Assembly: GCA_016212505.1 (NCBI GenBank)
Contig: JACRGB010000017.1
Location: 1 to 48,850 of the forward strand
DNA length: 48,850 nt
DNA from: Microcaldota archaeon
GTDB lineage: Archaea; Micrarchaeota; Micrarchaeia; Anstonellales; Bilamarchaeaceae
Reading direction: 5' to 3'
The notes under the pieces were generated by a model. The model saw only the letters and a program-made list of their open reading frames with translations, did no database searches and was not told the DNA's origin. Positions within the stretch are counted from its first letter, which is position 1. Every line of letters starts with the position of its first letter. The translations under genes and the position numbers were made by a program. Below, in pieces: positions 15,732 to 22,204 of this stretch.

Positions 15732-17216
15732 TCAGTTATGCTTTTTCATTAGGTCAGTTACCGTCCAATCCTGAAGACGATTGGCAAGTTCTCCAAATAG
15801 TGATGTTGAAGGCTTTGTCACTGACATTGCAGAATAAGCGTCAACCCATTCGAATTTACTTGGATCATAAATTGCAATTATGACATTGTATGGCCCGGCA
15901 GGAATTGACCCTTTCTTGAATTTATAGCTAAATTTTCCTGAAGAATCTGTTTTGTTAGTTATGGGTTTGACCTTGGATCTCATAGAAGAAAAAAGATCAC
16001 CTCGTTTATAAGTTTCATAATCCTTCAAAGGCACAACATATATTACCACATTCTGATTTTTCGGATAATTAGCACCGTTTAGGATTATGTCTTCATCGGT
16101 AGTGAAAGTGTATTTCGTAGTCCCGCTTAAATCGGAAGTTTTGATGCTTGCATTGAAGAATTTTTTTATTCCTTCAAATGTTGCTCTTGCGACAACTCTT
16201 TTTGCTTCAAGGTTATCATAGGCAAGCACATTTTGTATATCATTATAGTTAGTATGGAAACCAACTTCCACTAGTGCTGCGGGCATTTTTGTTCCTGAAA
16301 TGACTCCGGGGTTCTTTTGAAACAAAGAACAGGTTCGGGCGTCCACAGCTTTGTTAGGGTCATTAGGCCAGGAGGGGATCTTCTCATTTAAAGCAGTTGA
16401 AATTTGATTATGCAAAGATTCAGCAAGGAATTTTTTCGATAAAGCAAGTGAATTAAATTTCGCATTTTTATCATAAGGACATGCTCCAGTTATCTTATCA
16501 GTAGCAGAGGACCAGCCAGTAACAGTGCCGGTCGCATGGGGGTCTGGTGCATTAGAATGATATGAAATGAAAACATAGTCTCTGGATTTTTCCTTATCAT
16601 ATATGGTGTTTGCAAATTTCCAGCGTATGTCATAATCATAAGGGCTGCTTCCTGCATCTGGCTTTTTTGAACAACCGGAAAAAGCTGGCTTTAACATATA
16701 ACATAAATAGGTGGTTGCACTGTTCCTCCAGTCATTGCCAACATTAGGCTTACGTACCATTGAAAGCATTTGGTCTAAAGAGTAGGATAAGTCCCTGGTA
16801 GAATTGACAGAAAAATCATTATGGATCTCATCATAAAGTGCACGAGCGAAGAACGCACTACCTTCGGGCTCTACATAATCATCAGGATCCCTTGGAACCC
16901 CGCCTTTTCCAGAAACCTTAAGGTATTTGCCACATTCGACCGATTCAACGGTTCCTTGGAGTAATTTTGGCACATTGATGCAGCTTCTTCCGCTTACTAT
17001 TGAAGCACCGGAAGTAGGCCCATATTGCACAAATTTATTACTTGAGAGATTCGCACCTTGGGGGTCTAAATTACCATAAAGGGCATGGCCAGGGTCAATT
17101 ATAACCCCTATATGCTTCTTTTTGGATTCCCACGGGTCTTTTGCATAGAGTAGATTAGAAAACAATAAAATTGAGAAAACGAGAACGGTTAAATGAAATA
17201 TTGTTTTGTTTTTCAT
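15732..17216 (-). CDS. secreted N-acetylmuramoyl-L-alanine amidase-like protein
   Basis: A 494-residue secreted protein with a signal peptide at about 1-25. The amidase_3 domain shows the zinc ligands and catalytic Glu of that family: H44 (IIDPGHALYG), E117 or E119 (YVEPEGSAFF), H220 (VFISYHSN) and E317 (ALVEVGFHTN). The family cuts the amide bond between MurNAc and the stem peptide of bacterial peptidoglycan. A beta-sandwich-like C-terminal module follows (IYVVPLKDYETYKRG onward). It lies 6 bases after its longer paralogue, with which it shares both modules; the two form a tandem duplication. An archaeon has no murein of its own, so the target is probably bacterial. Confidence 0.88.
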   Translation of the reverse strand: MKNKTIFHLTVLVFSILLFSNLLYAKDPWESKKKHIGVIIDPGHALYGNLDPQGANLSSNKFVQYGPTSGASIVSGRSCINVPKLLQGTVESVECGKYLKVSGKGGVPRDPDDYVEPEGSAFFARALYDEIHNDFSVNSTRDLSYSLDQMLSMVRKPNVGNDWRNSATTYLCYMLKPAFSGCSKKPDAGSSPYDYDIRWKFANTIYDKEKSRDYVFISYHSNAPDPHATGTVTGWSSATDKITGACPYDKNAKFNSLALSKKFLAESLHNQISTALNEKIPSWPNDPNKAVDARTCSLFQKNPGVISGTKMPAALVEVGFHTNYNDIQNVLAYDNLEAKRVVARATFEGIKKFFNASIKTSDLSGTTKYTFTTDEDIILNGANYPKNQNVVIYVVPLKDYETYKRGDLFSSMRSKVKPITNKTDSSGKFSYKFKKGSIPAGPYNVIIAIYDPSKFEWVDAYSAMSVTKPSTSLFGELANRLQDWTVTDLMKKHN

Positions 17217-17222
17217 AACAAA

Positions 17223-19439
17223 TCAGTTGTTCAGATATTCGATTAAAGCAGTCGTCTTGTTTTGGGATTTGCTAAAAATTGCCATGTATTTCTTTCCTTT
17301 TACCCCAAAGTCATTGCCATAACTTGTGCCGCCATTTATTTTCTTTCCAACAGCATAGTAGTTTTTGGCATTTGAAAGTGCGATTAGGTTTTTGCCATCA
17401 GAAGTAACTGAACCATAGAACGAAGCGAATATTTTTGCTGCAGTTGTTGGGTTAAGCGCCTTAGCCTGGGGGCAGGCAACCAGATCAGTTACTGTGCAGT
17501 ATTTTTTGTTCTTGCATCCGCAAACGCTCGTTGTCACATTGGAGGAGGCAGTCACGCAATCTGCTCCGCAGTATTTTTCATAATTATATTTGTGGGTTAT
17601 TTGGATATATCCCCGGCCCTTATAGTCAACCCCGCCATCATAAGGAGTGCTCCTGCATTTACCTGAAATTTTATAGCTGCATTTAGGACCCATGCCGTAA
17701 TCGCCTATTTCTTCAACCGGTAGGAAGCTTCCGCCGACTTCTTTTTCCAATGTTGCCATAACTGCGGCAAGCAGTTCAGGAGTCATTGTAGTGCCCTGTG
17801 CCTTAAATGATCCTGAAATTGATTTGAGGGCAGTCATCAGGTTTTGGTTCTTGTCTTTGCCGTATTTGAATAGTTCTGGGAACTTCGAGGCGTTGTAAGC
17901 TCCATAGTTTGCAGTTGATGAATTTAATTTCTCTGCTGCTTTTTGGTAAGAAGTATTGGAAGCTGAAGCAACAGACCCGGTCTTAACAGTTGAGGATTTT
18001 GTGCCAGAACCAAGATACTCGCTTGAATCAGCTTTTGTTGCATCAACAGATATTGTTTTGACGATTGAAAACGTAGAATAAGCATCAACCCACTGGAATT
18101 TGTCTTTATCATATATGGCAACAATAACATCGTATTCACCAGCTGGGAGCGTATTTGGATTTATGATGGCGGTCTTTGGAACTTCACCTAAAATATCTGT
18201 TTTTGACACGTTTTTCTTTTTAACACCCAGAGAAGAGAAAGCCACATCTCTTTTATAATTATCATAGTTTTTATGAGGAACAACATATATTGTTACATCA
18301 TACTTTTGGGGATAACCAGTTCCCCAAACAAATATTTTATCATTAGTAGTAAAGGTATTGGTAGTAAGCCCGGTTTCTCTGAAAGTTTGCACGCCGGCAT
18401 TAAAGTATTTTTTTATACCATCAAAGCTTGCTTTTGCAACTGTCCTTTTTGGCTGTAGTTGATCGTATGCAAGGAGGGTTTTGACATTGTTATAATTTGT
18501 ATGGAAACCAATTTCTATAAGAGTTGATGGGATGTCTGTTTCTCTTATAACTCCATAACTTGCGGTCTGAAGATTGGAGGATCTATCAGACCAGCCAGCA
18601 CCTAATTCTTTATTCAGATCAGGTATTATTTCATCACGGATAAAAGTTGCAAAATATTTTTTCGAGTTGGGAGTTTTCGCAGTAGAGTAAAATACAGTAG
18701 TACCACTTGGTTTGAGATTAGATTTATTAGGCGTAGCATCAGAATGATAGGAAATGAATACATAATCCCTTGATTTATCATTTTTTTGGAGATCATTGGC
18801 GTATTGGTAACGGATACTTATATCATAATCACCACCTTTGGGGTTCGGTTTTTTAAAAGGCCCGCAATAAGTTTGCTTCATATAACAAAGATAGGTGGTC
18901 GCGCCACTGCGCCAATCGTTTCCAGTGTTTGGCTGACGAACAGAGGAAAGCATCCGATCAAAAGAATAAGATAAGTCGCGTGTAGATTCAAGACGCATAT
19001 ACTCATTGTTGGCAAAAGGATGGTTAGAAACAGAGTAAGGTAGAAGCTCTTCGTAAAGAGCGCGGGCAAAAAAAGCCGTTCCTTCAGGTTCAACATAATC
19101 ATTGGAATCTCTAATAGTAACTACTTCAGTCTTGCCATCTTTGGATAATTGAAGGTATTTTCCACAGTTGATCTCCTGTACTGCGCCATTAGCTAAGTTG
19201 GTGACATTTATGCAGCTTCGTCCTCCCTCCCCAGTTCCAGGTGCAGGTTGGTATTTTAAAAAATCTTTTGATGAGATATTCGAACTTTGCGGATCAGTAT
19301 CGCCATAAAGCGAATGGCCGGCATCTATAACTACTCCGATATGACCGAGTTTGTATTCCCAGGGCTCGGCAGCAGAAATTAATGATGAAAATAATAAGGA
19401 AACAACAAAAATTCCGAAAAAGAGTTTATTATTGCTCAT
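17223..19439 (-). CDS. secreted amidase_3 plus GH19-like lytic protein
   Basis: A 738-residue protein with a signal peptide (about 1-23). An amidase_3 domain contains H42 (VIDAGHSLYG), VEPEGTAFF, FISYHSD and LIEIGFHTN. The same beta-sandwich module as in the downstream paralogue follows, then a Ser/Thr-rich linker, then a C-terminal domain (about 500-738) resembling GH19 chitinase/lysozyme: LEKEVGGSF holds the likely catalytic Glu (565 or 567), and YKGRGYIQITHKYNYEKY at 606-623 is the family signature. Two different bonds of peptidoglycan, glycan and amide, could thus be cut by one protein. GGGGGTGC at 19443-19450 is a strong Shine-Dalgarno sequence. It is first in the two-gene unit. Confidence 0.88.
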   Translation of the reverse strand: MSNNKLFFGIFVVSLLFSSLISAAEPWEYKLGHIGVVIDAGHSLYGDTDPQSSNISSKDFLKYQPAPGTGEGGRSCINVTNLANGAVQEINCGKYLQLSKDGKTEVVTIRDSNDYVEPEGTAFFARALYEELLPYSVSNHPFANNEYMRLESTRDLSYSFDRMLSSVRQPNTGNDWRSGATTYLCYMKQTYCGPFKKPNPKGGDYDISIRYQYANDLQKNDKSRDYVFISYHSDATPNKSNLKPSGTTVFYSTAKTPNSKKYFATFIRDEIIPDLNKELGAGWSDRSSNLQTASYGVIRETDIPSTLIEIGFHTNYNNVKTLLAYDQLQPKRTVAKASFDGIKKYFNAGVQTFRETGLTTNTFTTNDKIFVWGTGYPQKYDVTIYVVPHKNYDNYKRDVAFSSLGVKKKNVSKTDILGEVPKTAIINPNTLPAGEYDVIVAIYDKDKFQWVDAYSTFSIVKTISVDATKADSSEYLGSGTKSSTVKTGSVASASNTSYQKAAEKLNSSTANYGAYNASKFPELFKYGKDKNQNLMTALKSISGSFKAQGTTMTPELLAAVMATLEKEVGGSFLPVEEIGDYGMGPKCSYKISGKCRSTPYDGGVDYKGRGYIQITHKYNYEKYCGADCVTASSNVTTSVCGCKNKKYCTVTDLVACPQAKALNPTTAAKIFASFYGSVTSDGKNLIALSNAKNYYAVGKKINGGTSYGNDFGVKGKKYMAIFSKSQNKTTALIEYLNN

Positions 19440-19513: not shown

Positions 19514-19775
19514 TGGGCCTGTGGAGAGCCGCAGAGAATTTATCCTAAGATAAAAACTCTTTTGAATTCTGTTAACTTTTTAGCAAGTTAGGTTTTTGTC
19601 AAACTTTTTCCTAAAAAGTTTGCTCCAGACCTACGGCTTTCCTAGGTAGTCAGTCGTAAAGACTGTGCTAGAACGTGTCATATAAGACCGTCGCTCTAAC
19701 CGAGATACTCTCGTTTTTGCATTTTGCGAGCTCGTTGCGAGCAAAATTAGCAAAAACAATCTGAGCTACAGGCCC
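19514..19775 (-). tRNA. tRNA-Ile(UAU) with four intron-like inserts
   Basis: Removing four inserts gives a complete 75-base tRNA: acceptor GGGCCTG/CAGGCCC with A73, D stem GCTC/GAGC, anticodon stem ACGGT/GCCGT, loop CTTATAA (anticodon TAT), T stem TGGAG/CTCCA, T loop TTCAAAT. Exons (minus strand) are 19775-19758, 19701-19681, 19638-19623, 19566-19561 and 19527-19514. The inserts are 56 bases in the D loop before G18, 42 bases at the canonical 37/38 site, 56 bases at 53/54 and 33 bases at 59/60. Most can fold into hairpins of their own. A UAU anticodon is unusual for archaeal isoleucine tRNA, where CAU modified to agmatidine is the rule. TTTTAAAA at 19802-19809 is the likely TATA box. Confidence 0.85.
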
Positions 19776-21975: not shown

Positions 21976-22204
21976 GGGCCTGTAGCTCAGCTTGCCTTGA
22001 ACTGAGAGTTCAAGACTTTCAGGCAAGGCCTGAAATGGATAGAGCGATGCTCTCCTAAGGCATAGGTCGCGAGTTCAAAAGAGCCCTTTTTTGGAAAAAA
22101 GGGCTCCCTATTGAAACGAACAATCGTTTCAATGGGGCACAAGGAACAGCGGTTCCTTGTTGTCACCCCAAAAAACCGGGGAACGGAAAATCTCGCCGGG
22201 CCCG
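21976..22204 (+). tRNA. tRNA-Arg(CCU) with D-loop and T-loop inserts
   Basis: Exons 21976-21993, 22037-22079 and 22191-22204 join to a perfect 75-base tRNA: acceptor GGGCCTG/CGGGCCC with G73, D stem GCTC/GAGC, anticodon stem ATGCT/GGCAT, loop CTCCTAA (anticodon CCT), T stem GCGAG/CTCGC, T loop TTCAAAT. There is no insert in the anticodon loop. Insert 1 (21994-22036, 43 bases) lies in the D loop just before G18 and is almost entirely two 8-bp hairpins. Insert 2 (22080-22190, 111 bases) lies at 59/60 in the T loop and holds at least three perfect hairpins, including GAGCCCTTTTTT paired with its complement. A/T-rich sequence at 21943-21960 is the likely promoter. Confidence 0.87.

Follow-up and report, generated by a model that had tools for sequence, protein, structure and literature searches.

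The window analysed here, a stretch of 48,850 nucleotides (contig JACRGB010000017.1 of GenBank assembly GCA_016212505.1, positions 1 to 48,850), carries on its minus strand, from 19775 to 19514, a tRNA-Ile(UAU) gene in five segments, which together give a 75-nt tRNA with all stems intact and the anticodon UAU (Table 1). The joined exons, GGGCCTGTAGCTCAGCTCGGTTAGAGCGACGGTCTTATAAGCCGTAGGTCTGGAGTTCAAATCTCCACAGGCCCA (75 nt), fold into a cloverleaf with a minimum free energy of -32.0. The cloverleaf and the orthologous genes bear out the initial annotation, which had read a 75-base tRNA spread over 262 bases at these coordinates with inserts at four positions, the one in the D loop now being placeable at 15/16; the six-base T-loop exon that it described, TTCAAA, is correct as well and recurs in six relatives. 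The HMG-CoA synthase encoded in the window is 82% identical to that of the metagenome-assembled genome STA_33, 80% to that of DeMMO3_13 and 78% to that of LFW-283_2, the last being Ca. Bilamarchaeum dharawalense of the Anstonellales, Micrarchaeota (PMC8561730). By sequence comparison, the host, a tiny uncultured organism, is a DPANN archaeon of the Micrarchaeota, order Anstonellales, in the genus of Ca. Bilamarchaeum, and not a member of the Thermoproteales.

Table 1. Exons and introns of the tRNA-Ile(UAU) gene, in transcript order (BHB, bulge-helix-bulge)
Feature	Length (nt)	Position	Strand	Basis
Exon 1: acceptor 5' strand, positions 8-9, D-stem 5' strand, A14 G15	15	19761..19775	-	Alignment with 28 family and 7 uninterrupted class orthologues
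Intron 1: D loop, 15/16, BHB	56	19705..19760	-	Splice geometry; missing in most relatives
Exon 2: remaining D arm, anticodon stem 5' strand, loop up to A37, anticodon UAU	24	19681..19704	-	Orthologue comparison
Intron 2: canonical 37/38, conserved TCTARYACA core	42	19639..19680	-	RNAalifold consensus; shared by the 29 family genes found
Exon 3: position 38, anticodon stem 3' strand, variable loop, T-stem 5' strand	16	19623..19638	-	Orthologue comparison
Intron 3: 53/54, relaxed BHB	56	19567..19622	-	Geometry; central helix co-varying with T-stem exon in relatives
Exon 4: TTCAAA, T-loop positions 54-59	6	19561..19566	-	Identical six-base exon in L114, L118, L122-L124 and L139
Intron 4: 59/60, BHB	33	19528..19560	-	Splice geometry
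Exon 5: position 60, T-stem 3' strand, acceptor 3' strand, discriminator A; CCA not encoded	14	19514..19527	-	Orthologue comparison

Neither ARAGORN nor Rfam detected this gene in the window, because of its non-canonical introns. It is recovered by a search that allows such introns: intron-aware alignment to the family tRNA gave the locus a score of 110, while 150 Markov shuffles reached a mean of 16.5 and a maximum of 41 and 233 random window segments a mean of 16.3 and a maximum of 43. A chance origin of the five-exon tRNA is excluded because its score lies so far above those of the shuffled and random segments.

Outside the window genome, a probe for the anticodon arm found tRNA-Ile(UAU) in 15 of 16 further genomes of the genus and in 13 from elsewhere in the family. 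As this probe spans the first intron bases and would miss genes without an intron at 37/38, a second probe, for an uninterrupted anticodon arm, was run to cover them; it found no uninterrupted tRNA-Ile(UAU) in the family or in the organism's own assembly, which is about 90% complete. Fully uninterrupted and near-identical genes are present in seven genomes of other families of the same class (L229-L235). Introns in the relatives were counted by intron-aware parsing and hand curation, the aligner boundaries in four genes with short, ambiguous T-loop exons (L114, L118, L122 and L123), where they were shifted, being re-read by hand with the conserved splice geometry. Among the 29 family genes, that of the window included, three contain four introns, eight contain three, nine contain two and nine contain one; the four-intron genes belong to the window genome, to another genome of the genus (G019) and to a genome of another genus (G036). 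Four introns in one gene, which the initial annotation called exceptional, exceed the highest published count found, which is three, but the window genome shares this number with two of the 28 others in the family that carry the gene. The 37/38 intron is found in all 29 genes, while the other introns are present or absent independently, and orthologues across the class carry 0, 1, 2, 3 or 4 introns around near-identical exons. The exon boundaries are fixed by this independent presence and absence of each insert, and the orthologues, which define the exon ends, also rule out a misread repeat. An intron at a further site, in the variable loop (45/46), occurs in the tRNA-Ile(UAU) of three relatives (L121, L135 and L140); the window gene does not use this site. 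A tRNA-Ser parse with four inserts in L156 was rejected for template mismatch.

TiaS (PF08489) was found in none of 147 genomes, the organism's own included, although four control archaea were positive in the search. A UAU anticodon is therefore to be expected in this clade. The view that UAU is rare among archaeal isoleucine tRNAs holds across archaea as a whole, but the anticodon is ordinary in this class, in which TiaS is not detectable. Only Nanoarchaeum and Korarchaeum are named as decoding AUA without TiaS among the archaea surveyed previously (PMC8450103). The tRNA-Ile(UAU) described here is probably functional, appears to be the sole gene of its kind in the genome and would read AUA codons. 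That it is instead a decayed pseudogene full of insertions, with another tRNA reading AUA, is very unlikely: such a gene might well escape ARAGORN and Rfam, as this one does, but all exon bases match those of functional orthologues, the stems and the splice geometry are intact, and the searches yielded no uninterrupted copy and no TiaS, on which the usual CAU isoacceptor depends, the search for tRNA-Ile2(CAU) itself not being exhaustive.

The gene might also contain fewer introns, if everything between 53/54 and 59/60 were a single T-loop intron with TTCAAA inside it by chance. Six bases are few, and low-complexity introns can mimic them. In that case, however, the T loop would lose its conserved TTCAAA, and the relatives contain each of the two introns on its own at unchanged sites: only the 53/54 intron in L120 and only the 59/60 intron in L119, L140 and L142. 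Where both introns are present, in the six relatives listed for exon 4 in Table 1, TTCAAA is kept between them. A single T-loop intron is accordingly highly improbable. Assembly of the tRNA from fragments of separate or permuted transcripts hardly merits consideration, for although split and permuted tRNAs are known in some archaea (PMC3218864), the exons here lie in order, on one strand and within 262 bp, as they do in 28 family orthologues.

We therefore return to a functional, four-intron tRNA-Ile(UAU) that would be spliced in cis, and give this reading as a whole a probability of roughly 0.92. It is built on the observed gene anatomy, orthologous exons, pattern of intron gain and loss, splice-site geometry, enzyme genes, absence of TiaS and repeated introns. 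A splicing endonuclease of 391 aa is encoded in the genome and is of the epsilon2 type, like the ARMAN-2 enzyme (4fz2/9w2k), to which it is 50% identical over 388 aligned columns (E 1.5e-132). All residues checked are conserved, namely the catalytic Y236/H251/K282, ASL Y160/K161, K228, R275 and W384. A gene for the ligase RtcB is also present. We propose that tRNA-Ile(UAU) is transcribed as a single precursor, from which the epsilon2 endonuclease would excise four protein-spliced, BHB-type introns, and that RtcB would join the exon ends. Intron 2, at the canonical position 37/38, would be the family's old intron, and introns 1, 3 and 4 would be later, lineage-specific insertions. A second splicing-endonuclease-like gene of 192 aa (L082, G000:C31:3459-3704) was also noted, in which the catalytic histidine appears by eye to be replaced.

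The splice sites were compared with a geometry in which each 3-nt bulge is cut after its second base, and all four pairs fit it with two 3-nt bulges. The test for a 4-bp central helix gave a strict match for intron 1, 4/4 for intron 2 and one mismatch, i.e., the relaxed form, for introns 3 and 4. Intron 1 has the central helix GCTC/GAGT (4/4), bulges AG|A and AT|C and an H2 helix of 8/8, a combination matched by 0/5000 intron shuffles; intron 3 has CTGG/ACAG (3/4), bulges AG|C and AA|T and H2 of 7/8, matched by 1/5000 shuffles; and intron 4 has TTCA/TGCG (3/4), bulges AA|A and GC|T and an intron helix of 6/8, matched by 6/5000. The boundaries of these three introns are top-scoring, with ties, among 169 shifts. 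At 53/54, the intron strand of the central helix changes along with the exon strand in relatives (CCTG/CAGG, CCGG/CTGG and CTGG/CCGG). Intron 2 has the central helix CTTA/TAGG (4/4), stacked on the anticodon stem, with bulges TA|T and AA|A and a weak intron-side helix; its splice site is supported because the RNAalifold consensus fold of 30 relatives pairs the central helix. The outer helix (H1) of intron 4 is the T stem, which pairs fully only with intron 3 removed, and exon 4 supplies the strand for its central helix. This implies ordered splicing, in which intron 3 would leave before intron 4.

Several points weigh against this reading. The boundary score of intron 2 is reached by 357/5000 intron shuffles. 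Folding of the junctions for BHB motifs, suggested in the initial annotation, gave a divided answer: the constrained geometry fits all four introns, but unconstrained folding of the precursor favours the complete motif for intron 1 only, forms intron 3 in part, favours H2 but not the central helix of intron 4 and does not favour intron 2. A second copy of tRNA-Ile(UAU) could still lie outside the incomplete assembly, and charging with isoleucine is deduced from anticodon and orthology.

Interruption is widespread among the tRNA genes of this genome, of which only six pass the Rfam cut-off, while two family relatives yield 36 and 45 matches at a looser threshold; of 20 further tRNA genes that were parsed, a partial inventory, the majority are also interrupted. 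The sequence of intron 1, TTGTTTTTGCTAATTTT, occurs five times in the genome at no more than one mismatch. Four copies lie in D loops directly after CTCAG, in the genes for tRNA-Ile(UAU), tRNA-Lys and two tRNA-Thr, and the fifth occupies the corresponding position of a gene whose tRNA has a CAU-like anticodon loop. With a sixth, looser copy in tRNA-Asn, relatives of intron 1 are found in at least five other tRNA genes. Members of the intron 3 family, with similarity beyond that of 500 shuffles, also occupy the T loop of tRNA-Gly and, in tRNA-Ile(GAU) and tRNA-Thr, the D loop. That introns 1 and 3 belong to families shared with other tRNA genes suggests intron transposition as their route of gain. 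The 37/38 intron varies in length from 27 to 74 nt across the 29 family genes, with a TCTARYACA-like core in nearly all of them. The core may be conserved because it has a function, for instance in intron-dependent modification; a guide-RNA explanation for TCTARYACA was considered, and none was established.

More tentatively, and with somewhat less than even confidence in the whole, the Bilamarchaeaceae may harbour an active population of small mobile tRNA introns. The D-loop family of intron 1 might have moved into one site of at least six tRNA genes, its 3' end pairing with the GCTC that their D stems share and so guiding the insertion. The family of intron 3 might have moved among D- and T-loop sites, probably via reverse splicing. 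The 37/38 intron alone, which is invariant and keeps its conserved TCTARYACA core, might be retained because it serves a purpose, for instance in anticodon modification that depends on the intron.

Two further interrupted tRNA genes lie in the window. One (27732-27509, minus strand) is a tRNA-Leu(UAA) with an anticodon-loop intron of about 80 nt and a 59-nt T-loop intron of the intron 3 family; the other (21976-22204, plus strand) reads as tRNA-Arg(CCU), with a D-loop intron of 43 nt and a T-loop intron of about 112 nt. Another intron family, CTTTTTGACTTCTGT...GGCAAAA, spans tRNA positions and species, being found in the D loop of L139, in the T loop of L121, in L159 and in L226 (G000). Directly downstream of the tRNA-Ile(UAU) gene are two adjacent minus-strand genes (15732-17216 and 17223-19439) with N-acetylmuramoyl-L-alanine amidase domains, which are unexpected in an archaeon.

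The highest published count that we found is three introns per archaeal tRNA gene, given in reviews and by tRNAscan-SE 2.0 (PMC8450103, PMC4033280), in agreement with the initial annotation, which had put the number at up to three in some Thermoproteales. Our literature search found no archaeal tRNA gene with four; supplements and many subscription papers fell outside its scope, and priority is thus uncertain. The multi-intron tRNA genes of the Thermoproteales (Sugahara 2008 and Fujishima 2010, as related in PMC8450103, PMC4033280 and PMC4090602) likewise share similar introns across different tRNAs, which has been read as transposition (PMC4090602) and which the intron families described here resemble. 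According to the same accounts, neighbouring introns are removed sequentially, like the order implied here, but the genes contain at most three introns and are served by a crenarchaeal (alpha-beta)2 endonuclease, whereas the present gene contains four and belongs to a DPANN archaeon with an epsilon2 enzyme. Closer in kind is Ca. Micrarchaeum acidiphilum (ARMAN-2), of the same phylum, with a UAU tRNA and the same epsilon2 enzyme type with ASL Y160/K161; its pre-tRNA-Ile(UAU) is cleaved in vitro (PMC12397907). That substrate contains a single BHB-type intron, to which the window gene adds three non-canonical ones. In Cyanidioschyzon merolae, the D, anticodon and T arms of the same isoacceptor are interrupted as here, although this organism is a eukaryotic red alga and its gene has three introns instead of four (PMC9602550). 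For the Asgard archaea Atabeyarchaeia and Freyarchaeia, main-text passages of PMC11291895 report that 92-95% of tRNA genes are interrupted, many non-canonically and over half by multiple introns; these passages contain no four-intron gene.

With its four introns, six-base exon and implied order of splicing, the gene exceeds by one the highest intron count found for a tRNA gene. AUA decoding without TiaS appears to extend across this micrarchaeal class. In a family with one to four introns and uninterrupted orthologues in the class, individual gains can be dated and their target sites read, which makes it possible to test in what manner tRNA introns spread and whether the broad specificity of epsilon2 endonucleases allows them to do so.
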